From the NCBI RefSeq assembly GCF_905475395.1, contig NC_058342.1, forward strand, positions 8,679,140-8,743,139: 64,000 nt of DNA, read 5' to 3'. The first letter of the stretch is position 1. Every line of letters begins with the position of its first letter. The notes beneath the pieces were generated by a model, which was given only the letters and a program-made list of their open reading frames with translations, was not told where the DNA came from and ran no database searches. Position numbers and translations under genes: made by a program. This stretch comes from Chrysoperla carnea. Lineage: Eukaryota; Arthropoda; Insecta; Neuroptera; Chrysopidae. Positions 13,322 through 64,000 of the stretch are shown here, in pieces.

Positions 13322-13339
13322 CATTTTGGTGGGGGGTAA
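13322..13339 (+). promoter_or_regulatory. Bel/Pao polypurine tract region
   Basis: A GGTGGGGGGTAA stretch directly abuts the right LTR, the position where plus-strand DNA synthesis is primed in LTR elements. Assigned by position and composition. Confidence 0.65.
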
Positions 13340-22379: not shown

Positions 22380-22722
22380 ACAATTTAAAAAAAAAAAAAA
22401 CATTATTTATTAGATATTATAATGATTATTAAAAAGAATGTCTCTATTTTATTTTATATTAATCTAGGTTTTTATCGTTTATTTATCCTTGATTGGTTGC
22501 TTACGCGGGGTGGTGATTTATTTGTGTAGTTACTACACTGTAGCTGTAGTACTTAAAACGTTGTGTATTTTTGAATTTTGTGAATAAACAGTAAACATGT
22601 TTGTGTTTGTGCAGTTTTATCTATGAGCTTGCGTGGTAGGTACACGTACTTAGCATAACTATAACAGTTAATACAATTATCATACAAACAGTCGTTTCAA
22701 ATTGCACGCTTTTGTCAACGAA

Positions 22723-23369: not shown

Positions 23370-24492
23370 ATACTGTGAGACAACCTGTGAGTTGAGAACT
23401 CATCAAAGTTTTTGTCGTCAAGAAAATCCAGAACACCACACGGGAATATCGCAGCTTACAAATTTAGATAATTGCGACATGATTAATATGTTTTTATTAG
23501 ACTTTATGCACCTTGCTTGCCTAGGTGTTATGAAAAAACTGTTTGTCGATTATTGGTTAGAAAATAAATCCGCTGCCAAATTAAGCTATGCTAACAAATG
23601 TAAACTATCTCAACTAGTACTTTCTTTACGTTATCAAATTCCCGAAGATTTTCAGCGTACAACAAGAGATATAAATGATATTTCAAAATGGAAAGCTACA
23701 GAATTTAGATTTTTCTTACTGTATGCTGGGTCTGTTATATTGAAATACTGTTTACCTAAAATACTATTTGAACATTTTTTACTTTTTTCTGTGGCGTGTC
23801 GTATATTATCATCAGATTCAGCACTACAATACAATAAACAAGCAAAAAAATTTTTAACACGTTTTGTTACAATGGCTCCGAATTTATATGGGCAATCTAT
23901 TAATATTTCAAATGTACATAGCTTAATTCATTTAGCCGATGATGTGAAATATTTACAATCACCTATCAGTGACTTTACAGCATTTCCCTTCGAAAATGCA
24001 TTGGGTTATATTAAAAAACTTTTAAGAAGTGGCAAGTATCCTTTAGCACAAGTATGCCGACGTTTATATGAAAGATCATTAGTTGATACGGAAAATATTA
24101 CAATAAATTCCGAAGTAAAAATACTAAGTAAAAAAAATCCAAATGAAAATGGCAAAATAATTATTAAAAAGTTAAAATTTAAAAATATGATTTTAAGTTC
24201 TACTAAACCAAATAACACAGTAATGTTATACGATAAGACAATTTTACAAATCCAAGAAATATTCATGCTTTCCAATGAAACTACAATTAATATTGCAGGA
24301 ATAATATTGGAAAAAGATAAGCCAACGTTTAAAATTCCATGTAAATCAGATATTTTAAATATGTGGAGAGTTCATACAACCAAAAATCGTTTTATTAGAC
24401 AATTACAAATGGTGTTACAGAAAATGTTTACGATGACAATTAATGAAAATGATCAAATTAAAACATACTCTATGCCATTACTGCATATATGA
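23350..24492 (+). pseudogene. Truncated transposase copy, unit 3 (380-codon chimeric ORF)
   Basis: Same structure as the unit 2 copy. It carries the SKKNP and KNMILSS variants of the full-length unit 1 copy. Confidence 0.85.
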
Positions 24493-24836
24493 ACAATTAA
24501 AAAAAAAAAAAAAACATTATTTATTAGATATTATAATGATTATTAAAAAGAATGTCTCTATTTTATTTTATATTAATCTAGGTTTTTATCGTTTATTTAT
24601 CCTTGATTGGTTGCTTACGCGGGGTGGTGATTTATTTGTGTAGTTACTACACTGTAGCTGTAGTACTTAAAACGTTGTGTATTTTTGAATTTTGTGAATA
24701 AACAGTAAACATGTTTGTGTTTGTGCAGTTTTATCTATGAGCTTGCGTGGTAGGTACACGTACTTAGCATAACTATAACAGTTAATACAATTATCATACA
24801 AACAGTCGTTTCAAATTGCACGCTTTTGTCAACGAA

Positions 24837-25484
24837 ATGTGCGAAAAAAGATATTCTTTAATAGTTTTTTTGGACGAAAAAGAAATTGAGAGGAGCGAAA
24901 CTGTCCAAGTAGACATTGTGCCAACCAAATGGATATTTTGTGATGACCATAACAAACTTGTATGCCCATTTATAAATGAATCTACTAAAGATAAAATTAA
25001 TCTATTACATAAATTAGTTCGTGAAAACAAACCAGCAGATTCCAGTTGGAATAATTATAGAGTGGAAGTTAGAGGAACAGCAGGTTAGTAAAATATTTTT
25101 TATTAATCAAAAAAATAAAAATATACTAAATAAAATTTCATTTCACAAAAAATATTTTGTTAGTCTGAGCACGTCAGCCATCTTATTGTTTTTGCTCACC
25201 GCAAACACTTTTTTCGCTAAACCTTCAGAAATTTTATAAATAATAATTATTTTTCTGATTTTTTTTGTAATCTTTCAAAAATTAATTTTTTAACAGAATT
25301 TGTATTTTCGAAAGTCATGTTTTTATTTTATTTTTTGTTTTTTTGTAAATAGACACGTACAAAGAAGGACTCGAAAAGTTGAAAATTTTACGTACTCAAG
25401 CGTACGCATTTTCTACTGATAACGAACAAAATATTTTAAAGAAGCAAGATTCAATAAAAAAACAATGCCGATTAAAAGGCATAT
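24837..25484 (+). pseudogene. DUF4806 gene 5' fragment, unit 3
   Basis: Exon 1 with intact donor, intron 1 and truncated exon 2. It shares the GAACAAAATATTTT variant of unit 1 where units 2 and 4 read GAACAACATATTTT. Confidence 0.8.
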
Positions 25485-26607
25485 ATACTGTGAGACAACC
25501 TGTGAGTTGAGAACTCATCAAAGTTTTTGTCGTCAAGAAAATCCAGAACACCACACGGGAATATCGCAGCTTACAAATTTAGATAATTGCGACATGATTA
25601 ATATGTTTTTATTAGACTTTATGCACCTTGCTTGCCTAGGTGTTATGAAAAAACTGTTTGTCGATTATTGGTTAGAAAATAAATCCGCTGCCAAATTAAG
25701 CTATGCTAACAAATGTAAACTATCTCAACTAGTACTTTCTTTACGTTATCAAATTCCCGAAGATTTTCAGCGTACAACAAGAGATATAAATGATATTTCA
25801 AAATGGAAAGCTACAGAATTTAGATTTTTCTTACTGTATGCTGGGTCTGTTATATTGAAATACTGTTTACCTAAAATACTATTTGAACATTTTTTACTTT
25901 TTTCTGTGGCGTGTCGTATATTATCATCAGATTCAGCACTACAATACAATAAACAAGCAAAAAAATTTTTAACACGTTTTGTTACAATGGCTCCGAATTT
26001 ATATGGGCAATCTATTAATATTTCAAATGTACATAGCTTAATTCATTTAGCCGATGATGTGAAATATTTACAATCACCTATCAGTGACTTTACAGCATTT
26101 CCCTTCGAAAATGCATTGGGTTATATTAAAAAACTTTTAAGAAGTGGCAAGTATCCTTTAGCACAAGTATGCCGACGTTTATATGAAAGATCATTAGTTG
26201 ATACGGAAAATATTACAATAAATTCCGAAGTAAAAATACTAAGTACAAAAAATCCAAATGAAAATGGCAAAATAATTATTAAAAAGTTAAAATTTAAAAA
26301 TATAATTTTAAGTTCTACTAAACCAAATAACACAGTAATGTTATACGATAAGACAATTTTACAAATCCAAGAAATATTCATGCTTTCCAATGAAACTACA
26401 ATTAATATTGCAGGAATAATATTGGAAAAAGATAAGCCAACGTTTAAAATTCCATGTAAATCAGATATTTTAAATATGTGGAGAGTTCATACAACCAAAA
26501 ATCGTTTTATTAGACAATTACAAATGGTGTTACAGAAAATGTTTACGATGACAATTAATGAAAATGATCAAATTAAAACATACTCTATGCCATTACTGCA
26601 TATATGA
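25465..26607 (+). pseudogene. Truncated transposase copy, unit 4 (380-codon chimeric ORF)
   Basis: Same structure as the other truncated copies, with the STKNP/KNIILSS variants of unit 2. It lies directly upstream of the intact gene 2. Confidence 0.85.
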
Positions 26608-26952
26608 ACAATTTAAAAAAAAAAAAAAAACATTATTTATTAGATATTATAATGATTATTAAAAAGAATGTCTCTATTTTATTTTATTTTAATCTAGGTT
26701 TTTATCGTTTATTTATCCTTGATTGGTTGCTTACGCGGGGTGGTGATTTATTTGTGTAGTTACTACACTGTAGCTGTAGTACTTAAAACGTTGTGTATTT
26801 TTGAATTTTGTGAATAAACAGTAAACATGTTTGTGTTTGTGCAGTTTTATCTATGAGCTTGCGTGGTAGGTACACGTACTTAGCATAACTATAACAGTTA
26901 ATACAATTATCATACAAACAGTCGTTTCAAATTGCACGCTTTTGTCAACGAA

Positions 26953-29900
26953 ATGTGCGAAAAAAGATATTCTTTAATAGTTTTTTTGGACGAAAAAGAA
27001 ATTGAGAGGAGCGAAACTGTCCAAGTAGACATTGTGCCAACCAAATGGATATTTTGTGATGACCATAACAAACTTGTATGCCCATTTATAAATGAATCTA
27101 CTAAAGATAAAATTAATCTATTACATAAATTAGTTCGTGAAAACAAACCAGCAGATTCCAGTTGGAATAATTATAGAGTGGAAGTTAGAGGAACAGCAGG
27201 TTAGTAAAATATTTTTTATTAATCAAAAAAATAAATATATACTAAATAAAATTTCATTTCACAAAAAATATTTTGTTAGTCTGAGCACGTCAGCCATCTT
27301 ATTGTTTTTGCTCACCGCAAACACTTTTTTCGCTAAACCTTCAGAAATTTTATAAATAATAATTATTTTTCTGATTTTTTTTGTAATCTTTCAAAAATTA
27401 ATTTTTTAACAGAATTTGTATTTTCGAAAGTCATGTTTTTATTTTATTTTTTGTTTTTTTGTAAATAGACACGTACAAAGAAGGACTCGAAAAGTTGAAA
27501 ATTTTACGTACTCAAGCGTACGCATTTTCTACTGATAACGAACAACATATTTTAAAGAAGCAAGATTCAATAAAAAAACAATGCCGATTAAAAGGCATGG
27601 CAAAGAAAAAAATTAAAAACAAATCGTTAGAAGACGTCGGAACCTTTGATTTGTCGACAGATGATGAAATGGGTAACTCAAGTGAGTAATTTATATTGTT
27701 TTTTTCCTCTTCTTACATGACTTATTCACAATGATTATAATCATATTTCATTTTTAATCCATAATTCAAATAAAAATAGAAAAATCAAAACTATTTTTAT
27801 TCATCTACAATTTTTATACAAGGTATATTTGAAATAAACGAAGGTTTTCTAAGTTTAGTCCCAACTTTGTAACGCTTAAAAATATTAATATCATGAACAA
27901 AATTTTGGTAAAGATGTTCATAAAATCATCTAATTAGTCCATTTTTTGTTGTCTATCTGTCTGTCGTCTGTGTGTCCATCTGTCATCACGATTAGTCAAA
28001 TTTTATAACGTGCTGAGGACGTGAAAAGTCAGATCAAGTTCGTAAATGAGCAACATAGGTCAATTGGGTCTTGTGGAACCCATCTTGTAAATCGTTAGAG
28101 ATAGAACAAAAGTTTAAATGTGAAAAATGTTCCTGATAAAAAAATTAACAACATTTTTTGAAACATTTTTTCGTAAACATTACTGTTTATCCGTGAGAGC
28201 GCAAATTATTTAGTATGTATGTTCAGGCTGTATCAGTTATTTAGGTGTGACATGTATGTATGTGTAATGTGACAGAGTAAACAACACTGTCTATACATGG
28301 TGTTTCAACAATTAACTCAGTCAATTGTTTACTTTTACTTGTTTTTTTCTTGCAGTATCTTCTCAAATATTGGCTGATAGTGACGACAACTCATCATCGA
28401 ATGCGTTGTCAAAAAAAAGTACAACGTCTTCCGGTAATTATACTTTTTGAATTAGCTAATTCAGTTTATTCTAGAATAAACTTTTTAATTATGAATTTAC
28501 GATAAACATCTGAATTTTTTGAAAAATTACCAAAATTTGATATAGATTTTCCTAAAGTGGACAAAATTTTTTCATAAACTTTTAAACGTTTTACAAATTA
28601 GTTTCGGAGCTTTTTTAACAAACAATTTTCATGGCTCTTTGTAGTAGATTGAGTTATTGGTTTTTTTATTAATATCTACAAAAAATGAATTTTATTGTAT
28701 TTTTTTTTATTATTCGCAAAACTAAGATTAACTTTAAGTAATTTTTATTCCATGTTTATGAAATATACTAAGGTATATTTAGTTTAGTCCCAAGTTTGTA
28801 ACGCTTAAAAATATTCATGCTATAAAAAAAATTTTGGTACATGTCTTCATCAAATCATCTAATTAGTCCATTTCCGTATGTCTGTCTGTCGTCTGTCATC
28901 ACGATTGCTCAAAAACGAACAGAGATATCAAGCTGAAAATTTTATTGCGTGCTAAGAACGTAAAAAGTGAGGTCAAGTTCGTAAATGAACAACATAGGTC
29001 AATTGGGTCTTGGGTCCGTAGTACCCATCTTTTAAACCGTTAGAGATATAACAAAAGTTTAAATGTAAAAAATGTTCCTTTTAAAAAAATAAACAACTTT
29101 TGTTTGAAACATTTTTTCGTAAACGTCACTGTTTACTCGCGAAAGCGCATATCATGCGCAAATGTATGGTATTTTATAGGTAAATCAGTTATATGTATAT
29201 GTGGGACATGTATGTATAATCAACACTGTCTATATATGCTATTTCAACAATTAACTCAGTCAATTGTTTGTTTTCACTTCTTTTTTATTTATTTCTACAG
29301 ACGTGCAGTCTTATCTACAAAACCCATTACCTTCTTGGTTAAAGCAATCATTTGATAAACTAACTTATCAAATTGGAACCAAACAAAGTGAATTAATAAT
29401 TATCAAGGAAGAATTAGCTGAAATAAAAGAAATAAGAACTAGTGTCGTAAGACAGGTCAAAGAAAAACAGAAGAAACATGATTTAAATCTTCCCTTCAAC
29501 GCCTTAAACGATTTTCTGTTATTCGACGAAAATTTAAAAACGGACAAAAGTTTACGTGAAGAAGTTGTAAGTTTCATTAAATATTTAAATTAATGTTAAA
29601 TACTTATAAGCTTTCACATAATAAAATTAACTGTTGACAGATTTCTATGATCTTACCTTTAATTTCTGCACGTGAAAAAATTTCAAAATCGCTAACTACT
29701 GTAATGACTAAATTTTTAACTCGAAATGTTACCCTCGAATTCACTGCACTAAAGCAGATAAAAGGAAAGCATATTTTTAAACAAACGTCTTTCTGTGCTT
29801 GTTTGCTAGGTTTGCATAATTTATTATTTACATTTTTTATGTTTAATATTTGGTAAACTAAAACTTTCCATTGAAGAACAAATGATGGATCACTTTTAAC

Positions 29901-32954: not shown

Positions 32955-34738
32955 AGTGAAACACAATCAAATATTACCTTTCGCTAAGACTCCAATCATT
33001 AGTTTAATAATTACTTTACCGATGCACAGATGTCAGATAAATATATATATAAGTTAAATTAATTTTCTTAAAAATATCCTTATAATGATATGTTATGAAA
33101 AATATTAATATTTTCTGTTTTCATTTTTAATTTCTGAAATATTAAAAATACTTACAGTATTTTTATATGTATGAATTTTTCATAAAAAGGAAAAAAACAA
33201 GTAATTGTTGGACAAGGAAAGATGTATACATAGCTAACATATAAATTATAGAAACAGCTATTTAAATTCATATATAAAAGCTAGTCACTGTATACAGTCA
33301 GTTAGTGTACGCAGAACCAAAAAATCAACAACATGGAATAAAGGAAACTATATATACATCTTTCTTCGAGCAACAAGGATATGTATAAACATCATTTAAT
33401 TTAATATTCAATTTCAAAATGTTCTGGTGAGAAATAAAAAACATGCATTAAATATTTTAATTTCATTTTGAACTTTATCTTATTTCTTTAATAAATTTGA
33501 TACTTGTTCTTTTAATTCAATCTGAGTGCTAAATGACAATCAAATAAGATTATTTTATTGAATTGTAAACAACTTTAGATAGATGATATAAAAATATTAT
33601 TTTATATAGTATTGGAATGATTTATGTAACTTTTTTGGGAAGTTCATGTGTTCTTGGTGTGTGATGAATTTAACACTCCAGAACATAGTTTAACATGAAC
33701 CTTTTTTGTTGTTATATTGTTTTTTCTAAATGAAAAAATTGTAACTAATTACTTTTTTTTTGTTGCATAAATCATCCGTGCTAATTTTTTTTTGAAACAT
33801 TTTGTTTCTTTTAGATATGACTAACTCATTATTTTAGACTATGTCATTTATATATTTATTCTTTTTTTAAAGTTTATTAAGTAAACTTTTTGGATTCTTC
33901 TAATCCGTTTATTATATGGTTAACTCTCTTTATAGAGACGATATCATTTTATATTATTCGACCATGTCGTTAGTCTGTATTTATTTCTTCTAAAGTTTAG
34001 TAAATAAACTTTTGGATTTTTTTATCCATTTAATATATGGTTAACTCTCTTTATAGAGACGATATCATTTTGTATTTTTGACAATGTCATTAATATTTAA
34101 TATTTTATAGAGTTTATTAAGTAAACTTAGGATTATTTTTTAATCCTTTTAAAATATGATTAACTCTCCTTTATAGGGACTATATCATTTTGTATAAACT
34201 AAAACGGTCGCTTGGTTTGACAAATTGTGGTATGCATTCATTGTAATATGTTTTTGTTTTTTTTTACTTCACTATTTTTGAACTTATAGAATGCGGTACG
34301 CAATTTGTCGAATCAAGTCACTTGTATATATAATTCTGTTATTTGCTTTTGTATGGACTATTTTTTTTTTGAATTATTGTGAAAGAATATTGGTTACGAA
34401 ATTGAATTTAATCTTTTTTATTAGTAAAGAATAAAACTCGAATTTATCAAAAATTTAAATACTGATTTCATTATTTTCTCTTAATTCAGATTTATATTTC
34501 AGATTAATTAATTTTCACGCTTCCACGTAAACATTTATGAATGAATTGAACTTGTTACATATATGAGATTGAGTACGGTTAACTCGTGGCTAGAATAATC
34601 TAGTTCGAGAGAATATCTCGGTTAACAACCATTCTTATTAGTACTTGTTCATTTCACCCTAATACAACGTTACAATATCAGTTAACTATAAAATTGCGTT
34701 TCAATTTTTATCAAACTCTTGTTTTCTTTGTATCAATA
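32955..34738 (+). repeat. gypsy 5' LTR
   Basis: Unusually long (1.78 kb) and AT-rich. It contains about three tandem copies of a roughly 120-bp block with GGTTAACTCTCTTTATAGAG and GTTTATTAAGTAAACTT (about 33835-34195). The exact 3' border is uncertain by one base because the neighbouring sequences share it. Confidence 0.9.
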
Positions 34739-34843
34739 TTGGTAGCAGACAGAACAAGATTTACACCTCTGAAATTCGTAACATTTTCTTTCATAATTTT
34801 TCTTAAACCTTAACAGGGTATTTAGACTATTGTTCACAGATTT

Positions 34844-35908
34844 ATGAACTCAGATTCAGATAATAGTGTTGAGGAATTTTATGGATTTTCTCCTGAAGAA
34901 CAAAGGGACATCCAGTATAGATTCAAACAACTATTTAAAATCACAATGGACAAAGAAACTTTGGATGAATTATGGACAAATTTAGGAGCACAATTGGAAG
35001 GAACCTCAAATTTGATCCAGGAAACCAATGTGGTATTAAATCAAATTTCCGAAGCAACACTTCATAACACCAATCAAATTTCGGAGCTAAGTACCAAAAT
35101 TACTTAAAAAAATTCTATAGATGACAAATTTCAAAAAATTGACTTAAATATAATTACCAAAGACATACCAGTATTAAACTTATTCTACCCTGACAGTACA
35201 GTTAGCTTCACTCTTGAAACTGACAATCTAGCAAAATTAAATCTCGTTTCAGAACATTTTCTTTTAAAATTTTTATTTACTAAAATACATAAAAATGCAA
35301 AAGATTTTTGGGCAAATTATTTAGAACAAGCAAGAACTTGGAACTTTATAAAAAAAGATTTAATTGAAAACTATTTATCAACTTCTCAATTAACAATAGC
35401 AAAAGATCGTTTTGTTAACAGACGACAAAAAGATGATGAAACCTTCTCATCATTTATTACTGATATTACAAAATACGCAAAACTTTTACAACCTGAATCT
35501 ACTGATTCTAGTATAATTAATATAATCTTTGCACATGTAAACGCCCAAACATTTGAATTAATAAAATTAATGGATACACCCGATTCAATCGTAAAGTTAA
35601 ATGAGTTAGGAAGAAAAATTTCTGAAATCACAGCTAGATCAAAGTTTTATAAAAATCAAAAATCAAATTTACATAATTCTATTACAAATCAACAAAACAC
35701 ACAAAAAACAAACACCAATAATGGTGATAAACTAAAGCATAAAAGTCAGTATAACTGTACTCACTGTAAAAAATCAGGGCATACAATTAAATATTGTTCT
35801 TTACTAAAAAATCAAAAAGTAAAAACTGAAAATACTAACCCCTTTGTAAATAATATCACTACCCAAGCTGATATTAACAATTACGAATCTGACATTTCAA
35901 AAAACTAG
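34844..35908 (+). pseudogene. gypsy gag, one in-frame stop
   Basis: One frame runs from ATG 34844 to TAG 35906-35908 except for TAA at 35105-35107. It encodes an acidic N-terminus, a helical capsid-like middle (FVNRRQKDDETFSSFITDI) and a CCHC knuckle near 35757-35800 (CTHCKKSGHTIKYC), the usual nucleocapsid motif that binds the RNA genome. The internal stop would remove most of the protein unless read through. The gag stop is overlapped by a frameshift heptamer. Confidence 0.85.
35899..35905 (+). promoter_or_regulatory. Canonical -1 ribosomal frameshift heptamer AAAAAAC
   Basis: The heptamer A AAA AAC is in the gag phase and ends one base before the gag TAG. Slipping back one base enters the protease frame (CTA GTA AAT...), which contains LVDSGSS. 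This is the X XXY YYZ pattern used by many gypsy-type elements and retroviruses for Gag-Pol. I did not resolve a downstream stem or pseudoknot. Confidence 0.8.
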
Positions 35909-38900
35909 TAAATCTCACCAAACATTTGCCTGTTATAAACATTAACATCGGTAACTTTAAATTTCATGCATTAGTAGACTCAGGTAGTTCAATTAATGCT
36001 ATTACAAAAAAGGCCTACAATAAAATTAAAAAAATTTTCGCAATTAAAATTATAAATTCACCCTTAACAGCATCTTTGCCAGGATCTAATAGTTTAAAAT
36101 AAAAATACATAATAAAATTAATTTATCTTTTAAAATTGATCATCTAACTTGGAAACAAGATTTTTACATCATTGATTCATTACCGTATGATATTCTTTTG
36201 GGTATACCAACACTACATAAGTGTGGAATTTTATTGAATTTCAATAATAATTCATTATCATTTCATCACTTTAATTATCTTAATATTCCATTCATTGATA
36301 CTGAACCTAAGATTACCTTTAATACAATATGCGAAATTCAAATAAATTTAGATAAATTAAATCAAGATAAATTAAATGCATTATTAAATAAATATAAAAT
36401 AGTTTTAACAAAAACACCGGGACGTGCGCGTAATTTTGAATACACTATATTTATTAAAGACAAGGAACCAATTCATAAGACTCCGTATTATCTACCACCA
36501 GATAAAGAAATATTACTTAAAAATCATATTAATGAACTGGTAAATCTAGATATTCTTAAACCAGCGCAATCTCCTTGGGCAAGTCCGGTATTTTTTGTAA
36601 AAAAAAAAACTAATAATGAATTTAGAATGGTATCCGACTATCGTTTCTTGAACAAAAAGATTGTTTTTGACCCAATAAGTAATGTATCAATTAATCATAT
36701 ATTTTCAAACTTAGGAAACGCCACAGTTTATAGTTTAATTGATATGTCAAATGCATTCTACCAAGTGCCATTGGATGATAGCAGCAAACCTTATACGGCT
36801 ATCATAACACAATTTGGTCAATTTATCTTTAATGTTATTCCGTATGGTCTCAGTATTTCAAGTCAAGCCCTTTGTAGGCTCTTACTAAAAGAATTTGCGG
36901 ACTTAATAAATAAAATTATGGTAATCTATTATGATGATATTATTATTTTTTCGGAAAATATTCAAGAACATCACAAACATTTACGCAACGTTTGAAAATC
37001 TTAGGACACGTAATTTCTTCCGAAGGTAGGATACCTAATCCTGAAAAAGTAGAAGCAATTAGAACTATGCCTATTCCTAAAAACCTTAAGGAATTACAAT
37101 CATTTCTTGGAATGACAGCCTTCTTCGCTAGATATATACAGAATTTTAGTACTATAGTGGCACCTTTAAATGCCTTAAAAAAGAAAGATGCTAAATTCAT
37201 TATAACGCAAACACATGTGGATGCTATTAATAAACTTAAAACAGTGCTCACTACGGCACCAATTTTACGATTCCCTATTTTTGATGACAAACATCCTTTC
37301 ATAGTAACTACAGATGCAAGTTCTATAGGTGTAGGTGCTTGTCTAATGCAAAAATTTGAAAACAAACTACATCCAATTGAATACTGTTCGCGAAAACTTA
37401 ATCCAGCAGAATCAAAATACCCAGTATACCAACTGGAATTATTGGCTGTTTTACATGCATTAAATACATTTAAAGACTACCTTTTAGATCGAAAATTTAT
37501 ATTACGTACTGATTGCAACGCTTTGGTGTATTTATTTAATACACCACAACGTTTTAATAAACTTTCCAGATGGTTATTAACTATCTCGAAATTTAATTTT
37601 ACTACAGAACATATTAGAGGCACAGAAAATGTAGTAGCCGATTGTTTAAGTAGATTATTTTGTGAAAATGAAACAAATATTGAGGAAAATATTCAATCAA
37701 AAAACATAGAACCAATTACACTTCTTAATCAGATATTAACTGACCCCAAAGGTTTTTTATCTATAAAAAAGGAACAAAAAGCTTCTCCAGATTGTAGACA
37801 CATTTACCAATTAATTAAATCAGGTTCAAATGTACAAAATTTTGCAATTCGCGATGGCTTATTAGTTCGTTTTGTTGGGCGCAATAGAAATAAACGTATT
37901 GTTCTCACAGATTCTTTATTGGACTATGTATTAGATTACTTTCATTCCTCAGTATTTGGATGTCATTCAGGCGTCACGAAAACATATCGTGAGATAGCCA
38001 AAAGATTTACATATCCTGACTTATATAAAAAAACTGTAGATTATGTTAAAAAGTGTAGTGTTTGTGCTACCTGTAAACCAATAAACTACAAAATCTCAGC
38101 ACCTGATGCATAAATTAGTGAAAAAAATATATATAACAAATTATATGTGGACTTTATTGGACCCCTAATACCTTCTGCAGATAATGGCTTCAAATATATT
38201 TTTGTTATTACAGATGCTTATAGCAAGTTTTGTTGGGCCTACCCCACTAGGAAAGCAACGTCAGCAGTGGTAATTAAAATTTTACATCAACTCTTCATGG
38301 TATTTGGATTTCCAAAAGTTTTAATTAGCGATAATGCTAAAAGCTTCAAGTCTAATAAATATACACAATTTTATTATTAAATGGAATTCGCATTGGATAT
38401 ACCTCGCCTTACCGTCCTCAAGGTAATATCACAGAAAGAATAAACAGAAATATAAAAATAAATTTAACCTGCGTAATCAAACAATACCAAATGAAACATA
38501 AGGACTGGAATAAAATATTGCCATTTATAATATTCAATTTCAATTCGACATATCACTCAATTATTAAAGCTTCACCAGCAGCAGTTTTTTTGGGGTCGAA
38601 CTTGGAATCAACCATTGGATTTATTACTAAATACCACCGATATTTTGGCTATGGAAAAACCTCCTAGTGTGGATATGGTCCAGCAGGCACTGCATAAAGC
38701 TACTGTAATGCGAAAAGCACGACAACATCAAGCTCCAACTGATGTTAAATTCCACGTTAATCAACTTGTACGGGTTAGACTACCACCTACAGCATCAAAC
38801 ATCAACGAAGACAGAAAATTTTCACCTCGATTCAGCGATGTTAAAAGAATCGTCCGTTTTACAACTCCAGTTAGTGTAGAATTAATTGATCCAAAAACTA

Positions 38901-38953
38901 ACGAATTAACTAGAACACATGTCACACACTTGAAACGTGCTGAAGTGTTATAA
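35905..38953 (+). pseudogene. gypsy pol: protease, RT, RNase H and integrase, broken
   Basis: Protease with LVDSGSSINAI (near 35975) in the -1 frame is cut by a one-base frameshift near 36098. RT (about 36198-36995) has SPWASPVFFVKKK, FRMVSDYRFLN and YYDDIIIF but loses a segment and its frame near 36990. Connection and RNase H (36992-38113) contain KILGHVIS, TDASSIGVGACL and an integrase HHCC region with CSVCATC. An in-frame TAA at 38111 precedes the integrase core (YVDFIGPL, LISDNAKSF). Further frame changes near 38370 and 38610 precede the C-terminal segment 38615-38953. RT and integrase catalytic words survive but no continuous enzyme can be made. Confidence 0.88.
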
Positions 38954-38977
38954 GATGAACTTTTTTTAGAGGTGGTG

Positions 38978-40759
38978 AGTGAAACACAATCAAATATTAC
39001 CTTTAGCTAAGACTCCAATCATTAGTTTAATAATTACTTTACCGATGCACAGATGTCGGATAAATATATATATAAGTTAAATTAATTTTCTTAAAAAAAT
39101 CCTTATAATGATATGTTATGAAAAATATTAATATTTTCTATTTTCATTTTTAATTTCTGAAATATTAAAAATACTTACAGTATTTTTATATGTATGAATT
39201 TTTCATAAAAAGGAAAAAACAAGTAATTGTTGGACAAGGAAAGATGTATACATAGCTAACATATAAATTATAGAAACAGCTATTTAAATTCATATATAAA
39301 AGCTAGTCACTGTATACAGTCAGTTAGTGTACGCAGAACCAAAAAATCAACAACATGGAATAAAGGAAACTATATATACATCTTTCTTCGAGCAACAAGG
39401 ATATGTATAAACATCATTTAATTTAATATTCAATTTCAAAATGTTCTGGTGAGAAATAAAAAACATGCATTAAATATTTTAATTTCATTTTGAACTTTAT
39501 CTTATTTCTTTAATAAATTTGATACTTGTTCTTTTAATTCAATCTGAGTGCTAAATGACAATCAAATAAGATTATTTTATTGAATTGTAAACAACTTTAG
39601 ATAGATGATATAAAAATATTATTTTATATAGTATTGGAATGATTTATGTAACTTGTTGGGAAGTTCATGTGTTCTTGGTGTGTGATGAATTTAACACTCC
39701 AGAACATAGTTTAACATGAACCTTTTTTGTTGTTATATTGTTTTTTCTAAATGAAAAAATTGTAACTAATTACTTTTTTTTTGTTGCATAAATCATCCGT
39801 GCTAATTTTTTTTTGAAACATTTTGTTTCTTTTAGATATGACTAACTCATTATTTTAGACTATGTCATTTATATATTTATTCTTTTTTTAAAGTTTATTA
39901 AGTAAACTTTTTGGATTCTTCTAATCCGTTTATTATATGGTTAACTCTCTTTATAGAGACGATATCATTTTATATTATTCGACCATGTCGTTAGTATGTA
40001 TTTATTTCTTCTAAAGTTTAGTAAATAAACTTTTGGATTTTTTTATCCATTTAATATATGGTTAACTCTCTTTATAGAGACGATATCATTTTGTATTTTT
40101 GACAATGTCATTAATATTTAATATTTTATAGAGTTTATTAAGTAAACTTAGGATTATTTTTTAATCCTTTTAAAATATGATTAACTCTCCTTTATAGGGA
40201 CTATATCATTTTGTATAAACTAAAACGGTCGCTTGGTTTGACAAATTGTGGTATGCATTCATTGTAATATGTTTTTGTTTTTTTTTACTTCACTATTTTT
40301 GAACTTATAGAATGCGGTACGCAATTTGTCGAATCAAGTCACTTGTATATATAATTCTGTTATTTGCTTTTGTATGGACTATTTTTTTTTTGAATTATTG
40401 TGAAAGAATATTGGTTACGAAATTGAATTTAATCTTTTTTATTAGTGAAGAATAAAACTCGAATTTATTAAAAATTTAAATACTGATTTCATTATTTTCT
40501 CTTAATTCAGATTTATATTTCAGATTAATTAATTTTCACGCTTCCACGTAAACATTTATGAATGAATTGAACTTGTTACATATATGAGATTGAGTACGGT
40601 TAACTCGTGGCTAGAATAATCTAGTTCGAGAGAATATCTCGGTTAACAACCATTCTTATTAGTACTTGTTCATTTCACCCTAATACAACGTTACAATATC
40701 AGTTAACTATAAAATTGCGTTTCAATTTTTATCAAACTCTTGTTTTCTTTGTATCAATA
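38978..40759 (+). repeat. gypsy 3' LTR
   Basis: 1,782 bp. Visible differences from the 5' LTR include TTTAGCTAAG for TTTCGCTAAG, GTCGG for GTCAG and ACTTGTTGGG for ACTTTTTTGGG, about 0.5% overall by eye. Confidence 0.92.
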
Positions 40760-41388: not shown

Positions 41389-42780
41389 TTGGTTTTTTCA
41401 TATTTCTGCATTTTCAGATGTAAGAGCAAACTCTTACAACGTCATCTTGTTCAGAACAAGAAAATTGTGTACAATACAGACATCGACGTTTCTGCAATGG
41501 CAAACAATTACAAATTTCTGGAGACAAGACATGGTTATGAGTTTGAAAATGCTGCATATTATTTGAGAAGCTGCATTAAAAATATAGATGCTCATCCGCT
41601 TCCTCGCAACGTAACTGCTTATGACATCATTCATGGAGAATGCAGCATTCCTGAGCAATTAATTGATTTTATGCGAAATCTTGTTAAAGGACCTAATTTT
41701 TCTAATGACGATTCAGACAAACTGAACGTAAAAATAACTTCAATATGTAGTGATATTATTTATGCTATCACTAGAGATGCATATAAGTTTAATCCGGCAA
41801 GTAATCACGATACTAATTAGGTATGGCCATATGATTGGATATAATTTGCCAGAACAATTGGAAACCAAAATGACATACACCGATCCTAGACAACAAAGTT
41901 ATACCAAAAGGCATCACTGCAGCAAATGGACACAGCACTCACGAAGCGTTCGACAATTTCGACCGCTTCGTTGACAAAACTTCTGGAAAGGACACAATGC
42001 CCGACGCAGTTGGACTTGTTTACTAATTCTCTAGTAATGGAACTGATTATTTTGATGATGTTGAAGCTACAACTTCATCAACGCCTCAAATTCCACATAG
42101 GCCCTTCTACATTTTCTCCTCAACGAAAATGTAGAAGGGTCTATCCCTAAGGTGTTTCATTGAAATATCACGAGAAATTCGACCATATTATTCTAAACCT
42201 AAGGCAAGTATGCAGCTGATTACTATAGATTCGTTTACCAATACAATAGAGTTATGCAAAGGTGCTACAGAAATAGCAACAGATAAGGATTTATTATGGG
42301 TAATGTCGTTGTCAAAAATTGATTCTGTTCCTTTGTGGTTGGGTTATAAGTGTATGATATCAAGTAACCACAGTGAGAAGCAAAAGATTGAGTATTTGCT
42401 TCTCATAAATTGTTCACCAATGAAACATTAAACATAGCTAAAGAAATCGCTGAGAAATATCAGCAGCCAGAAATTATTGTGACATATGATTAAGAGATAG
42501 CAAAAATGGCAATGCAAATTCAAGAACAAGAAAAACCGCCATACAATAAGATTTTTGTTAACTTGGGAGCGTTCCACACAGAGATGGCATTTTTTAAAGC
42601 CATCGGAAAATACAATGGCTGCAGTGGTTTAGTAAAAATACTGGTGCAAGCAGAAGTATTAGCTGGCTCCATGAAAAGCTTTTTAGACAGCAAGCATTTC
42701 AGTCGTTGCAAGCGCTTACATTCATTGACTGTTTGTTTGTCGTGTTACGTAGTCAACCGCATATTTTATTCAAGATAAGT
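41389..42780 (+). pseudogene. Gene A, first part: relative of gene B, degenerate
   Basis: Fragments in changing frames align in order with the gene B protein: HPLPRNVTAYDIIHGECSIPEQLIDF with its YPPSDEFLKNPGTMPQSLTF region; a translated AFDNFDRFVDKTSGKDTM near 41935-41990 with FDNVDFNVCTIDGLNTL; DLLWVMSLSKI (about 42288) with DVLWFVAKKLNI; EIIVTYD (about 42471) with RVIITFDQP; and NLGAFHTEMAFFKAIGKY (about 42557) with RLGGFHLLMSFLGSIGYF. Several frameshifts and stops interrupt it, for example TAG at 41818 and TAA after the VTYD block. The family is widespread in arthropod genomes but, as far as I recall, has no named function. The gene is cut off by the LINE downstream. Confidence 0.75.
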
Positions 42781-47659: not shown

Positions 47660-48054
47660 TAACCGGTGTAGCATTACAAATATAACATTTTGTACATTAT
47701 TCAATCACAACCATAAAACACTTGAGGCGATGGGTGAACTGCTGCAAACGCAAATGCAGAATGCATCAAATCAGACTTTGTATGACGTCAACGAAATAAT
47801 TGAGTTACCAGATTTATTGAGTCGTATTTTGAATGGTTTAAAAAGAATTCAGCAATCGGACTTTGATAGGAGAAAATGGGAAAACTGCTCAATTTTATTA
47901 CCAATACTGTGAGTTACTAAATTTATACCATCGGTTTTCCAGAAGTATGCGCACCAGTAACTTTGAATTGTACTTGGACTTAATTTTCAACATATCTGAT
48001 ATATTTTTTGCGTTAAACCATCCCAATTATGCCAAGTGGTCCTTGTAATATTTG
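47660..48054 (+). pseudogene. Gene A, second part between LINE and hAT
   Basis: Two overlapping frames (to about 47880, then from 47863). The second reads FYQYCELLNLYHRFSRSMRT and FALNHPNYAKWS, which lines up with WIQYFNMVNLVKEYIHAERSG and FHASGHFPYAKS at the end of the gene B segment visible in this window. It therefore continues the gene broken at 42780. The hAT element follows immediately, with the duplicated AATATTTG at 48047-48054. Confidence 0.72.
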
Positions 48055-49426: not shown

Positions 49427-51960
49427 ATGTCTGAAAGGAAAACGAAAAGATTGTCTGGAGCGCAATATAAAAGAAAGCGAGAGGAAAAGCAAAATGAAGC
49501 TAAAAAAATGTTTGGCTCATTAACAAAGTTTTTAGTAAAATCGCCAGAACCGGAAAGTAGTTGTAGTAGCCAATTAAATCCAATTGATGATTTGTTTTGC
49601 GATAAAAATGAAAATGAATTATCTGTCGAAAATGAAAAGGCTAATGACAATACTAGTAGTACCGACGAAATGGAAACAGAAGATAATAAGGATATCGATC
49701 TATACAATACCGATACCGCTGAAATTGATAAAGCATATTTTGCTATGTGTATGGATTTAAATGATCCAGCTTGCTGGCCTTTAACAATTACCACTAAAAT
49801 ATTGGATATATTAATCGAAAAAGGACCCATACAAAATAAACAATCTACATATCCAATTAATGAATTGGAAAGATCATTTTCATCAACTTATTTCTATAGA
49901 AAAATGCCAAATGGTGAAAAATTTAATCGTGAGTGGTTAATCTATTCTCCAAAAACGGATTCCATATTTTGCTTCTGTTGTAAATTATTTGGCAAACAAG
50001 AAATAAAATTAGTTAATGAAGGCTTCAATGATTGGCAACACACATCTGATAATTTATCTCGTCATGAAAAACATCGCTGCATATCGGAAATTGCACCAAT
50101 TGGAAAAATTTGGAATTAAATTTAAAAAACAAAGCTACAATTGATAAAAATTTGCAACGGTATTATGACGCAGAGAAAAAAAGATGGTATCAAATTGTCG
50201 TACGCATGATATCTGTGGTACAATTTCTGGCAGTACAGGGTTTAGCGTTTAGAGGTAGCTCGAGCAGATTGTATGAAAACAATAATGGAAATTTTCTAAA
50301 AGCAATTGAAATGATAGGAAAATTTGATGATGTTATGGCAGATCACATAAATCGCATTCAACAATCAGTTGCTTTAAAGAACCATATGCCACATTATGCG
50401 GGAAATCGCTTCCAAAATGAAATAATTAGTATCCTTGCAGCGCAAATTCAAAAATATATTTTGTCAGCAATAAAAGACGCCAAATATTTTTCAGTAATTT
50501 TGGATTGTACGCCGGACATGGGACATGTCGAGCAAATTACAATAATTTTGAGATATGTGCATATTCAAAATGACGAAGTAGAAGTGAGAGAAAATTTCGT
50601 TGGTTTTTCTCCAGCTCAAAAAAGTACTGGAGAAGCTTTTTACGACTTTTTAATTGAAAAATTAAGCTCTCTTAAATTAAATGTTAACGATATGAGAGGC
50701 CAGGGGTATGATAATGGATCAAATATGGCTGGAAAACATATTGGATTGCAGAAACGAATTTTGGACAATTATCCACGAGCTTTGTTTATGCCATGCAACG
50801 CGCATACATTAAATTTGGTCGTCAATGATGCAGCGAAAGTTTCTTTTTCAACTGTGGATTTTTTTAGTAATGTGTCAGCAATATACAATTACTTTTCCGG
50901 ATCACCTTTTCGATGGCAAATTTTAAAAAAACATGTAAAATCGTTAACAGTAAAACAAGTTAGCGTAACCCGGTGGGAATCAAGGATTAAGGCGATTAGA
51001 CCACTGCGTCATGAATTAGGTGAAATTTATGACAGCCTAATAGAACTAGCGGAAGAATGTTCAACACCAATAGGTCAACATGAAGCTAAATGTTTGGCAA
51101 TGAAAATTAAATCGTACAAATTTATTTGTTCCACAGTAATATGGTACGAAATCTTAGAAAAAGTAAATATTATTAGTAAAATGATGCAGACCGTTTCTTG
51201 GAATCTTACTTCATGTGCTGAATCTATTAATAATATTTTAATTTTTTTCCAAAGTATTAGAAATGATGAAAATTTCGAAAAGTATTTGAAAATTGCTGAT
51301 GAATTATGTGAATCACTTGAAATACAACCGGAATTTCCTGTTGAAATTAATCTACGTCGACGCCATAAGCAAAAACAATTTGACTATGAAGGAGATGAGG
51401 ATATTCAGTTAACTGCTAAAGAAAATTTCAAAATTAATTTTTTCTATGTAATATTGGATACAGCCAATTCATCTGTTACTACCCGATTTGAAACATTATC
51501 CAATTTCGAACAGTCTTTCGGATTTTTATATAAATTTGTTGAAATAGGAGAGGACGACATAAAAAAAAGTTGCTTCGACTTTCATAATAAATTCAAGGAT
51601 GGCGAATCGTGCGACATAAACGGAGCAGAATTATACGAAGAGTTAATTTCATTGAAAATAATTATAAAAGATAGGAAACAACCCGAAGAACTCCTAAAGT
51701 ATTTGTACAAACACAATTTACAAAATTCATTTCCAAATGTATCTACAAGCTTAAAACTATTATTGACCATGCCTGTATCAGTTGCGTCTGGAGAACGTAG
51801 TTTTTCTAAATTGAAAATCATAAAAAATTACCTACGTACTTCCATGACGCAAGAACGTATGAGCAATCTTTTTAATTATCGCGATTGAAAGTGAAATTGC
51901 TGAATCTTTAAATATTCACGAAGCAATTGACGATTTTGTCAGTAAAAAATCCCGTAGGAT
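49427..51960 (+). pseudogene. hAT transposase (ZMYM1/DUF4371 type), two frameshifts
   Basis: The first frame (49427-50119) starts MSERKTKRLSGAQYKRKREE and contains a TTF-type zinc region (FCFCCKLFGKQ, NLSRHEKHR). After a one-base shift near 50105, the second frame (to 51888) holds the catalytic region with FSVILDCTPDMGHVEQ (first Asp), GQGYDNGSNMAGKH (second), MPCNAHTLNLVV, and the C-terminal hAT dimerisation region (MPVSVASGERSFSKLKIIK). A further shift near 51870 moves the last about 30 codons (ESEIAESLNIHEAIDDFV, ending at 51970) out of frame. The protein would have moved the element and similar short copies. Only small indels separate it from an open gene. Confidence 0.9.
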
Positions 51961-52801: not shown

Positions 52802-53790
52802 AGCAATTAAATCAATTTGTATACTAATAATTCATCTTTGGTAGCTGAACCTCAGCAAAACGACCATTTGGCAACAATAAAACAAAACAAAACAAAAACT
52901 TTTTAACCGTCAACCATCAACCATCAAATTCAGGAAAATTCCGTAAAAAAAAAAATGAAGAAACTAATTATAAATATGTCATCACGAAGAGACAGATACA
53001 AGGACTATTGTTCAACCTGGCTTAAGAATTTTAATTAAAGTCTCTGATACTGACGTTTTGATTGTTTTTTTTTTTTTTAGGAAATATGCACAAACTAAGG
53101 GAATCTGAATTTTGGCTTGCCAGTTCAGCAACAAAAAAAAAACTAATAATCAACCTGTTGATTGCATCAATTGCACCGATTTAGCGTTGAAGTTAGGAAT
53201 CAAATTATGCCAAAGACTTCTCTCCTTCCATGCATTTACAGGATGTGATTACACGGTAGAATTCTATAATAAAGGAAAAGTAAAACCTTTTCAGATTCAA
53301 AAAATAAAAAATTGAAAAATATCAAACAATTTTTGCAACATTAACAGATGCTGCTGATATTATCATTGATGAAAAAATGAACACCGTTCAAGAATTAACA
53401 GCCAGTATAGTATGTATGGTATCAAGAACTGCACTAGAGTGAATGATGCGGGATATCTCATTTTTATGAATATTACTCTGCTAAAGAAGATACCGTACAG
53501 TTCTTGAAAAAAATAAAACGCTTTCACTCCAACTCCATACCACCATGCTGGATATCATTGACTCAAAAAATTTTACTATTTTCGTAAATTCCATATGGCT
53601 TAATGCAACGAATTCATCATGCGTGAAACTTCAATCTGAGAACTGCGATTGGTTCTAAGATAAATATTTAAAACCAATAGGATTCATTGGGGATCATCTC
53701 TCAGTCGCAAAAATTCACTCGCAGCAATATTTTACTTCAAAATTCGCCAATCAGAATTCGGGACAGATTTTTCGCAGGCAACCTTATACC
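52802..53790 (+). pseudogene. Gene A, third part: C-terminal segment
   Basis: Gene A sequence resumes after the hAT. Visible blocks: VSDTDVLI (about 53042-53065), then after a T-run GNMHKLRESEFWLASS (about 53080-53130), CQRLLSFHAFTGCDYT (about 53207-53255) with YNKGKVKPFQ, and PPCWISLTQKI (about 53541). Frameshifts and stops are common. The DTDV...FHAFTGCDxT order with a following Gly-Lys is a hallmark I recall from the C-termini of this arthropod family. It resembles the acidic motifs of FEN/XPG (PIN-like) nucleases. Homology erodes after about 53700. Confidence 0.65.
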
Positions 53791-59640: not shown

Positions 59641-61350
59641 TAAGGTTAGAAATTTTTATACTGACGATTTATGGCATGCTAAGAGCAATAGCCATGACCT
59701 GGCAGGCGTCAGTCCTGCACGTCATCAGCCCCTTTATTTTTCGAACTGTTAAGTAAATGGGGTTTCAAAACTTGTTCCTGTAAGTTTGAAAATTTAATAG
59801 AATAAAGTTTATTTATTGTACATCTTAAAAAAAAATTGACAGGCGATTACAATAAGCAGAAGTAAACGCACAGTTGATGAGGTAAAATAAACTTTATCCT
59901 GTATACTTGAAATTTTTATATGTTTTCAAATAGACTTCTTAGAGTAAGTATGTACAATGCCAGGCGGTTTTGAACAGCATAAGACCTTGACAGGCGAGGG
60001 GACAGCTGCTAAGGGCGTGCGAGTAAGAGGTGTTGCGTGAATGCCATTAGTGCGAGTGAGACCATTTATCTAATACGAAGGGACGTATACCTGCTCTCGA
60101 GCAACAATGTACAGAGAAGAATTTCGTCAGTTGTGTCAACGATTTTGACTTGGGTGGATGCTTTGAGCTATAGCATTCCTTACGTTAAGTGATTTCGAAT
60201 TTTTTAAAAATCAAACTTCATATTGTTATCAATTGTGCAGTGATATTGTGTATCGTTGTACTTTATTTCTTCAAATCAAAACTTCTTCAAATCTACCTAG
60301 TCCAGTCAATAAATGACCCAAAATGAGGTGTAGAGTGCGTGAGCAGGTAACTAAGCGATTCCTTCAGAAACTTGTTCAGGGGGCTTAGGTTGTTAACATA
60401 CCAAAAGTCCTGACTCCTAGGTGATGAGCGGGGGGGAGGAGGGGGGGCTAAATGTACGAATTTTGGGTTTTTCGCTTATATCTCGAAAACGGTGCATCGG
60501 AGAGAAATATTTTTAGATAATAAAATGGAGTTCTTAAAATTATCTAAAACTTTTATATCATATGTTTTTTTCTAATTCCTAACCGTTTTCGAGCTATACC
60601 CTCGGAAAAAGTTGAAATTTACAAAAAAAATCAATTTACGTCAAAATATTCATAAACATTGCATCATATTGTCTAAACCTATTCATAAACGAAAAGTATG
60701 AATAGGAAAGAAGTTGTAGATTTTTAAATTCCCTTTTAGAATATATATACATATGCTGATTAATGTCCAACCCGCCTAAAGTTACAGCTATTTTAAAACT
60801 TGTATAGCATTTTGCAATTTTCAGAAAATTAGTTTGTATATCATATTCTTAACCCACAACCTTTGTTCGTGTATTTTGTTTAAATTACAGATAACAATAT
60901 CAGCAATTTGTTAGTCAATTGAATTTAATACTTGAAAACAACATTAAAAGAGCCGTATGCAATAGAACGCCGATTAACCGAATCGCCAATTATCCGTATC
61001 GGTCCTAAGCGTTATATAAAAAATTAAAACTAAGTAATTTTTCAATAAAAACAAGTTCAATAATAATTATTTTTTTGACTGGCCCAAAATATTCTTTGTT
61101 ATATACTGATTTAAAAAATATATACTTTTATAATGTTATGTCACTTTATTGCGTGGTAACAAATCAAATGAAAATTAGTTTCCATGGTTTTACGCTGCTG
61201 TGAGGGTCAACTTTCACTAGTTTGCTTGTCCGAATGACAAACATCTCATACAGTAATAATAGTTTTAATGCTTATAACTTTTAGGTTGGTAACACTGATT
61301 TCCTTGTCTTCTGTTAATGGACTGTCAGCTGGTTCTTGTTACCCTTACTT
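59641..61350. other. Unassigned spacer with repeat-like patches
   Basis: No coding region supported. Notable: CAGGCG words near 59701, 59841, 59961 and 59991; a G-rich run at about 60428-60450; TATCTCGAAAACGGT near 60479 with an inverted partner near 60586; and GATTAACCGAATCG near 60973. It looks like eroded repeat DNA. Confidence 0.4.
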
Positions 61351-61357
61351 TATAAAG
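61351..61357 (+). promoter_or_regulatory. Possible TATA box of gene B
   Basis: TATAAAG about 255 bp upstream of the gene B start codon, followed about 25 bp later by TTAGTTTTG. Position and sequence only; introns in the 5' UTR cannot be excluded. Confidence 0.3.
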
Positions 61358-61571
61358 GTTAGTGTTAGTTTTGTTTACAAACATTTTGAAGTGTAAACAA
61401 TACCTAAGTTTTCACCTTTTCAGTTTTGTGCTATGTTTTATCCTTAGTTATGATTATATCCTAAGTTAGTTTAGTTTAGTGTGTGTCAAATGTGCCTAGG
61501 ATCAAGAAATTTAATATTAAACATACATTTAGGGGAAACAGGTTTTTAAAACCTACAACAAACCATGATAT

Positions 61572-61613
61572 ATGAGTACTACTAAGTGTCCTGTGTGCCT
61601 GAAACTGCAATGA
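61572..61613 (+). CDS. 13-codon upstream ORF overlapping the gene B start
   Basis: ATG at 61572 opens MSTTKCPVCLKLQ and stops at TGA 61611-61613, which overlaps the gene B ATG (61610-61612) as ATGA. The first 29 bases are an exact copy of the gene B start at 61610-61638, so this uORF is a duplicated, truncated start. It could restrain or re-initiate translation of gene B; that is inference. Confidence 0.6.
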   Translation: MSTTKCPVCLKLQ

Positions 61614-64000
61614 GTACTACTAAGTGTCCTGTGTGCCTTAAGGACGTTTTAAGCGGAAGTGAAGATGTCTCTGAAGTCAAAGAAAAGGGTATACTGGGCC
61701 TTGTTAAAGCAAGTAAGGAACGGAAAGACAACAAGCATGAAAGTTTCCGTGATTTGTCATCCCTTTTAATTCACACAAGCTGTCGTAAAAATTACACCCG
61801 GACTGACACGATAAAAAAATATGTTAGGGAGGCATCCACATCCAAGGAAGAGACAGGGCCGACTAAGCTCCGGTCTTCAGTTCCTAAATTCAATTTTAAG
61901 AGTAATTGTTTGTTCTGTGGGCTTTGCGCAAAAGAAGAAACAAAAAAGCCTTTGGCGAAAAGGAAAATTGTGCATTCAGTTGAGACTTTAACTGTTCAAA
62001 ATCGAATCAGGGAGCTGTGTTCTATGAGGAAGGATACCTTGGGCGATGAAGTTCTTCACCGCCTTTCCTCGATTAACGATCTTGTTGCTGAGGAAGCAGT
62101 ATACCACAAAGACTGCTACATTAATTTTTTGAAGCCCACGAGTTTACAAACTCCAAAAACAGAGATCCCCAGAGACAACCATGTTACAAAGGCTATGGAG
62201 GAGATTTTCAGCTACTTGGAGGGAAGCAGTGATTGTCAGTTCTCCAAAGATGAAATACTGGGTATCATATCAGAGACCAAACCCCAATGGCGGACAATCA
62301 AGGCTGAATTGGAGAGGAAATATGGAGATCGGATACTGATCACTCCAGGTGTCAACAGATTTAGTGTGCCAGTGGTATGTTTTAGAGACAGTGGGAACAA
62401 AATTCTCAATGAAGCGTGGTATGGAAACAGGGCCAAAAATGAAGAAGAAGAGAGGTTGAGAATTGTTGCTAAAGCTGTGGAAATTTTACGGCAAGATATT
62501 CAGAGTCAAGTGTACAGCACAGACACATACCCTCCGAGCGACGAATTTTTGAAGAATCCAGGTACAATGCCTCAATCCCTTACTTTTTTCCTTGAGGGTC
62601 TTTTATTGGCAAAGACAAAGAGAATAGAAGAAACAAAGAGAAAATGTGCTGCATTGGGAAATGCCATAATTGGGATTGTCAGACCTAGAACCTTCGTATC
62701 ACCTCTATTGTGCAGCCTATCATTGCTCATATACAGAAAGTATGCTTCAAGGCATTTAATTGATCTTCTTGCAAATTTGGGCTTCTGTGTATCGTATCAC
62801 GAAGCACAAAAGTTAGAAATGTCAGCAATAGACAGTGCGAAACCTGGTTTTATTGTAAAGAAAGGTGCTTTCAATCAATTTGTTTTCGACAACGTTGATT
62901 TCAACGTATGTACTATAGATGGGCTCAACACTCTTCATGCTATGGGTGGAATCAGGTGCATTACTCCCTCGAATTCCCTTGAAAAAGGTGCAGACATACC
63001 AAGATTGAAGAACATTCCCTTATCACATGATGTTGGCAAACTTGGCATAATTCCGCTGAAAACATTCCAGAAGAGCGCTAGCCTGGAAAGTGTAGTGGTC
63101 AAACGCATTAACGTACCCGAAGAAGTGGTTCACCCTCAACCATTAGATGTTCTCTGGTTTGTTGCAAAAAAACTAAACATCCCGCTGCCAGAATGGAAAG
63201 GGTACATGGCAACCATAACAACAGGGGATTTCAGTGAAAAAACTAAAGTTATAACCCTCCCCTTAATCAATGCGCCTCCAACAAACTATGACACGGTCTA
63301 TACGGCCTTGCAATATGCTTGCGAGTTGATCCAGCTTACCCAGAAAGACAATGAAAGTAACCAACTAAGAGTAATCATCACCTTTGACCAGCCACTATAC
63401 TGGAAGGCGCGGGAAATCATTGCTGCTGCACCTCTTGACTCTCAGATAACGAACTGTATAGTGCGCCTTGGTGGATTTCACTTACTGATGTCCTTTTTAG
63501 GCAGCATAGGCTACTTCATGGCTGGAAGTGGCCTAAAGGAACTGTTATGCACTACCCACGCTCCTCTATCTGTTGACAAAATGCTCCAGGGTCACGCGTT
63601 CGCTAGAGCAGTAAGAGGACATTTGCTTGCAACGACGGCATTGTCCAACAAAATACTGGACCAAATTATACTGACAGAAGAAGAGAAGTCTACTGTAACT
63701 GACATTTTGTCAGGTTTCCTTGATGAGCCACCTGCACTGAATGCCTTAAATAAAAACCCAATCATCAAAAAGTTGGCTGAGAAATTCGGTGATAAATTGG
63801 AACAGCTTAAAAACAATGGACCAACAGCTCAGCTATGGATCCAGTACTTCAACATGGTAAACCTAGTCAAGGAATATATACATGCAGAAAGATCTGGTAA
63901 TTGGGATTCACACCTGAACTGTGTCAAAAAAATGATACCGTACTTTCATGCATCTGGACACTTTCCCTACGCAAAGTCCTGCCAGTTGTATATTCAAGAT
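61610..64000 (+). CDS. Gene B: intact member of unnamed arthropod family, cut by window end
   Basis: 797 codons without a stop, running off the right edge. Two CxxC...HxxC sets (C6/C9 with H55/C58; C100/C103 with H166/C169) suggest zinc-binding modules at the N-terminus. The middle has WDNID-like FDNVDFNVCTIDGLNTLHAMGGI (about 425-448), a pattern I recall as diagnostic of a large repetitive arthropod/invertebrate gene family; then DVLWFVAKKLNI, IITFDQPLYW (about 588-598), RLGGFHLLMSFLGSIGYF and HASGHFPYAKSCQLYIQD at the edge. Full-length relatives continue for several hundred residues with a DTDV/TGCD segment, so the visible part is probably the first two thirds. Base composition is less AT-rich than the neighbours. 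It may be a young transposon-borne or domesticated gene. The ATG at 61610 is chosen over 61572 because the latter frame stops. Confidence 0.82.
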   Translation, partial: MSTTKCPVCLKDVLSGSEDVSEVKEKGILGLVKASKERKDNKHESFRDLSSLLIHTSCRKNYTRTDTIKKYVREASTSKEETGPTKLRSSVPKFNFKSNCLFCGLCAKEETKKPLAKRKIVHSVETLTVQNRIRELCSMRKDTLGDEVLHRLSSINDLVAEEAVYHKDCYINFLKPTSLQTPKTEIPRDNHVTKAMEEIFSYLEGSSDCQFSKDEILGIISETKPQWRTIKAELERKYGDRILITPGVNRFSVPVVCFRDSGNKILNEAWYGNRAKNEEEERLRIVAKAVEILRQDIQSQVYSTDTYPPSDEFLKNPGTMPQSLTFFLEGLLLAKTKRIEETKRKCAALGNAIIGIVRPRTFVSPLLCSLSLLIYRKYASRHLIDLLANLGFCVSYHEAQKLEMSAIDSAKPGFIVKKGAFNQFVFDNVDFNVCTIDGLNTLHAMGGIRCITPSNSLEKGADIPRLKNIPLSHDVGKLGIIPLKTFQKSASLESVVVKRINVPEEVVHPQPLDVLWFVAKKLNIPLPEWKGYMATITTGDFSEKTKVITLPLINAPPTNYDTVYTALQYACELIQLTQKDNESNQLRVIITFDQPLYWKAREIIAAAPLDSQITNCIVRLGGFHLLMSFLGSIGYFMAGSGLKELLCTTHAPLSVDKMLQGHAFARAVRGHLLATTALSNKILDQIILTEEEKSTVTDILSGFLDEPPALNALNKNPIIKKLAEKFGDKLEQLKNNGPTAQLWIQYFNMVNLVKEYIHAERSGNWDSHLNCVKKMIPYFHASGHFPYAKSCQLYIQD

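Follow-up and report, generated by a model that had tools for sequence, protein, structure and literature searches.

A stretch of 64,000 nucleotides from Chrysoperla carnea (contig NC_058342.1, positions 8,679,140 to 8,743,139 of the forward strand; hereafter the window) ends inside a long undamaged reading frame, which raises the question of what kind of gene it is. The initial annotation assigned the frame to an unnamed family without known function and proposed that it encodes either a mobile-element enzyme or a domesticated product. Here the frame is found within a 6478-bp DNA transposon. With a probability of about 0.88 this transposon belongs to the AcademX lineage of the Academ superfamily and moves autonomously by cut and paste, the frame being its only long gene; the comparison with AcademX was made by description only.

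The Reading Frame

The frame opens with an ATG at 61610 and runs for 797 codons without a stop up to base 64000, which has a chance of about 3e-23 given its own base composition. When the contig was extended to the right, no stop or frameshift was found directly downstream. The frame continues to 1473 codons and then stops, the window holding the first 54%, and the extension revealed a C-terminal CXC domain. The motifs that had been pointed out earlier (CxxC/HxxC pairs, FDNVDFN, HAMGGI, TFDQ, and RLGGFH) are all in frame, and 153 of the 157 conserved positions are kept. There is an in-frame GTG upstream at 61586; those relatives that include the N terminus start like the ATG. The start codon is part of a tandem duplication, in which 61572–61603 is repeated at 61610–61641 with 97% identity. 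The first copy opens a frame of 13 codons, and its TGA overlaps the true ATG. All seven copies of the element described below carry this duplication unchanged, so it did not stop the element from spreading.

Seven Copies of a Young Transposon

The 2391-bp query matched seven copies in the 559,487,470-base genome, with one mismatch in two copies. Four further matches were only 70–176 bp long, at 68–83% identity. Agreement among the seven copies begins 1312 bp before the ATG, the point at which their flanks diverge, and this places the left boundary at window position 60298; the right end lies past the window, at G000:C6:8745914. The frame start given in the initial annotation holds, and the left part of the element had been missed. 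The ends are inverted repeats of about 570 bp that start with TAGTCCAGTCAA. The terminal 12 bp are the same at both ends and are followed by a 549-bp block with three mismatches (99.45%), with the left end being 10 bp longer between these two parts. Each copy is flanked by its own perfect 3-bp target duplication: GAT, ACC, TAA, ATA, TTA, and ATT in six copies and ATG in L015. The window copy, L010, has ACC at both ends. The same 1473-codon frame, free of internal stops, is present in all seven copies. Seven copies with the whole frame, inverted repeats, and target duplications of their own identify a recently moved DNA transposon and not a domesticated gene, so that of the two roles first proposed the mobile-element enzyme is the one borne out.

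Five of the seven copies are 6478 bp long, whereas L012 and L015 have been enlarged by later insertions, in both cases outside the frame. The insert of L012 lies in the right part; it measures 383 bp, has a poly-A tail, and is accompanied by a 13-bp duplication. In L015, the right repeat is interrupted by an insert of ~2847 bp (from 7671 of L015 into L016), which sits at a TA site and has ends that resemble inverted repeats. These two young inserts indicate that other families moved after the 6478-bp element did.

The element is very young and spread very recently in the host genome. L009, L010, and L013 are byte-identical across 6478 bp, L011 and L012 have one private substitution each, and L014 and L015 have two each, for a total of six in about 45 kb. 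Where the right segment of L012 begins or ends at its insert, five seeming differences belong to the poly-A of that insert and were left uncounted. If insects acquire about 3e-9 mutations per site in each generation, the spread would roughly date back some tens of thousands of generations. No copies of intermediate divergence were seen among the best genome candidates scored, and a recent horizontal arrival of the transposon is therefore possible.

Predicted Domains and the Protein Family

Protein searches returned 9, 219, and 587 relatives, with 120 listed for each of the two larger searches. Among 191 relatives compared by length, 111 are 1400–1560 amino acids long, 77 are shorter, and 3 are longer. 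The view that this is a repetitive arthropod family agrees with the named sources among the matches listed, which are mostly insects of several orders; one record is from a coral, Dendronephthya. Of the first 128 proteins, alignment A3 contains 79, A4 contains 93, and A5 contains 32. The rows were picked by eye, and mainly fragments, near-duplicates, and chimeras were left out. The closest relative, P0002, is 86% identical to the full open reading frame (ORF) across 1259 aligned columns, and its CXC domain appears to be absent. Several relatives are named in their sources as Tesmin/TSO1-like CXC domain-containing protein, and one as lin-54-like. In the viral and prokaryote contigs scanned, and likewise in plasmids, no relative was confirmed.

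Searches of Pfam, PDB sequences, and NCBIfam with the ORF returned nothing firm, as did sequence searches with the XPG piece and with the family profile. A viral fold library gave no match to the 797-residue model at E ≤ 0.001. The VIA rows for each model were mostly taken up by one or two domains, so that other families may match without appearing among them. The architecture that follows comes from predicted structure and conservation, from which we infer the domain roles. Two zinc modules and a winged-helix-like segment are predicted to precede a core that looks like the RNase H transposase core of the P element, the best solved folds being the P-element transposase (6pe2) and Hermes (6dwz, hAT). 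D427, D593, and E838, the proposed catalytic acids, fall on the expected elements of the predicted RNase H fold. The last of these, just past the window edge, is found in 92/92 rows with a residue at that position. D430 is conserved as strongly as D427, and E760 is nearly as conserved (91/93). Beyond the core, a nuclease domain of the FEN1/EXO1/XPG type is predicted, visible through structure prediction only. It shares the fold and the seven acidic positions of these enzymes and is here fused to a transposase. All seven positions are present and are kept in 91–92 of 92 rows, two being Asp where FEN1 has Glu. The CXC domain at the C terminus contains nine cysteines, each conserved in 29–30 of the 29–31 rows with a residue (of 32).

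Pfam PF20231 (DUF6589), for which Pfam gives no function, covers the same core region. The full ORF scores 15.3 bits against a gathering cut-off of 27, and 10 of the 32 proteins in A5 match at E ≤ 0.1. One relative, P0065, passes the cut-off with 32.7 bits, whereas five others scanned with it and six in a separate scan fall short of it. A helicase domain, which would tie DUF6589 to AcademH, was found in none of the 120 matches listed of the 587, and DUF6589 was found in 9 of them. DUF6589 gains from the present element a testable reading as a P-element-like transposase core. A literature search found no paper on this DUF6589/transposase-XPG family.

Classification of the Element

The AcademX nuclease is said, by Kojima in 2020 and in Repbase, to be XPG-like and to be accompanied by a Cys8 zinc finger; the CXC-type domain with its nine cysteines is a candidate counterpart of that finger. 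A passage on the superfamily gives target duplications of 3 or 4 bp for AcademX and of 9 or 10 bp for AcademH, linked to the encoded nuclease and helicase, respectively (PMC10045372). A transposase joined to a nuclease, duplications of 3 or 4 bp, and terminal inverted repeats are all found here, so by description, and as far as it was compared, the family first taken as unnamed fits AcademX. The average length that one source gives for curated bivalve Academ elements, 5565 bp (PMC10294476), is near the sizes of the elements here. The element looks like an intact, very young representative of a kind that is already known and little studied; its value lies in being such a representative and in the structural reading of DUF6589.

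The same features might belong to a DNA transposon of another superfamily, or of one not yet classified, that has no more than an XPG-like nuclease in common with Academ. The match to Academ is by description and not by comparison with Repbase sequences, and for the XPG type as a mark of Academ a single passage gives backing here, on the AcademX nuclease and its 3–4-bp duplications. The nuclease, the 3-bp duplications in 7/7 copies, and the duplications of 3 or 4 bp at five related loci nevertheless fit AcademX, and we regard another superfamily as improbable. Membership of the P-element or hAT superfamily with extra domains is suggested by the solved folds closest to the core, and is very unlikely on several counts. 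P and hAT transposons make 8-bp target duplications, against the 3 bp seen in all seven copies, and the XPG-like and CXC domains are additions relative to 6pe2 and 6dwz. According to a passage in PMC9587614, a C/DxxH motif between the second Asp and the last Glu is common to P and hAT. No such conserved column occurs between D593 and E838, where the motif appears in at most 4/93 rows anywhere; the likely site reads GxxH in 91/91 rows, and the single instance in the full ORF, CTTH at 647, is unconserved. The family profile also gave no match to the P-element and hAT fragments of the window. The intact frame with its conserved positions would suit a host gene domesticated from a transposon, but seven copies at different sites, each with its own duplication and inverted repeats at both ends, and three of them identical, reduce that idea to almost nothing.

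Proposed Mechanism

Tentatively, and with considerable doubt, the element could be a currently mobile Academ transposon whose one protein cuts each end twice, the 3' strand with a P-element-like core and the 5' strand with a FEN/XPG nuclease, the two active sites being unrelated. Binding of the transposon ends would fall to the zinc modules together with the winged helix and the CXC domain. The RNase H core (D427, D593, E838) would cut and join the 3' ends, staggered by 3 bp, and the nuclease joined to it may cut the other, 5' strand at excision. In Tn7, TnsA cuts beside TnsB at excision, with likewise one active site per strand; these are two proteins, and the nuclease is an unrelated restriction-enzyme-like one, whereas the present protein would be a one-chain counterpart in a eukaryote. 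Alternatively, the nuclease might act after strand transfer has taken place and remove old flanking DNA that remains as a 5' flap. If the core cuts and joins the 3' ends, the old flank is left as 5' flaps on the element, which a 5'-flap nuclease would fit.

It is quite possible, at somewhat under even odds, that the XPG-like domain of the same element leaves the transposon ends uncut and serves only to repair post-insertion gaps or flaps, or is structural, either of which is compatible with the AcademX classification. FEN1 relatives are repair enzymes, and the present results do not separate the roles of the nuclease. A purely structural role is made unlikely by the conservation of the seven acidic positions. 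We know of no Academ element that has been shown experimentally to move. Seven near-identical copies with full frame, both ends, and duplications are a good start for testing how a transposase that carries a flap-type nuclease works.

Related Families in the Genome and in the Window

A search of the genome with the full protein matched 34 places, and 32 of 840 candidates were scored. A second AcademX-like family, L025–L028, has ~41% protein identity, a length of 5.9 kb, and a long stop-free frame in each copy. Its members are 99.8–100% identical to L026 and have inverted repeats of ~590 bp, with ends TAGCCCAGTC. Among seven related loci examined, L025–L028 have 3-bp duplications (TAG, AAA, ATT, and TAT; a shifted reading also fits L027), and L024, with ends TAGTCCAGTC, has the 4-bp duplication TGAA. 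For L029 three readings compete, and the only one for L030 is poor. Within the window, pieces of a decayed distant relative lie in gene order at 42–53 kb, with reverse-transcriptase and hAT-like frames in between (Table 1).

Table 1. Features of the transposon and of its decayed relative in the window
Feature	Position	Strand	Evidence
Left 3703 bp of the 6478-bp transposon, probable AcademX type	60298..64000	+	Identity to seven-copy element; flank divergence
Target-site duplication ACC, left copy	60295..60297	.	ACC directly after right end in L010
Terminal 12 bp of inverted repeat, TAGTCCAGTCAA	60298..60309	+	Same at both ends
Inner 549-bp block, left inverted repeat	60322..60870	+	99.45% to right block, 3 mismatches
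Tandem duplication at start codon, spacing 38 bp	61572..61641	+	
Putative transposase-nuclease gene, first 797/1473 codons	61610..64000	+	
First C2HC module: C6, C9, H55, C58	61625..61783	+	66/66, 66/68, 73/73, 73/73 rows with a residue, A3 (79 rows)
Second C2HC module: C100, C103, H166, C169	61907..62116	+	Each 76/76 rows with a residue, A3 (79 rows)
Winged-helix-like segment, residues 185–260	62162..62389	+	
RNase H-like transposase core, from residue 415 on, containing a helical insertion	62852..64000	+	Pfam DUF6589 weak at 543–791
D427 (DNVDFN), proposed first catalytic acid	62888..62890	+	Asp in 87/87 rows with a residue, of 93; first core strand
D593 (TFDQ), proposed second catalytic acid	63386..63388	+	Asp in 91/91 rows with a residue, of 93; just after strand 588–592
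Decayed distant relative, two pieces (42135–42428, 42494–42775)	42135..42775	+	Profile columns 477–561, 597–678; E 1.6e-5, 4.9e-10
Decayed relative, next piece	47842..48045	+	Columns 729–785; E 2.8e-10
Decayed relative, nuclease-domain piece with HAFTGCD	53109..53312	+	Columns 1215–1269; E 7.5e-7

Other Elements in the Window

The description of the surroundings as almost entirely broken proved too sweeping. A BEL/Pao-type element at 6608–13679 has an open ORF of 1735 codons (7895–13099) and is flanked by 340-bp repeats with 100% identity, and a pogo/Tigger-like frame is open over 654 codons at 2824–4785. An Rfam scan of the window gave no match at gathering scores. At 19132–27538, four units of ~2.1 kb form a head-to-tail array with 99.2–99.7% identity, and in three of them a frame of 394 codons is open. 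A frame at 18485–20251, which overlaps the first unit, has a weak DUF1258 match below the cut-off. Pieces of a Gypsy-like retrotransposon at 33300–40759 lie between repeats that share 99.65% identity for at least 1439 bp; within each of these repeats is a three-copy tandem repeat of 121 bp. The P-element-like transposase at 14291–16449 is broken and retains TNP-like RNase H, GTP-binding, and THAP9 C-terminal domains. The hAT-like frame at 50068–51885, of 606 codons, has pieces of the decayed Academ relative on either side.
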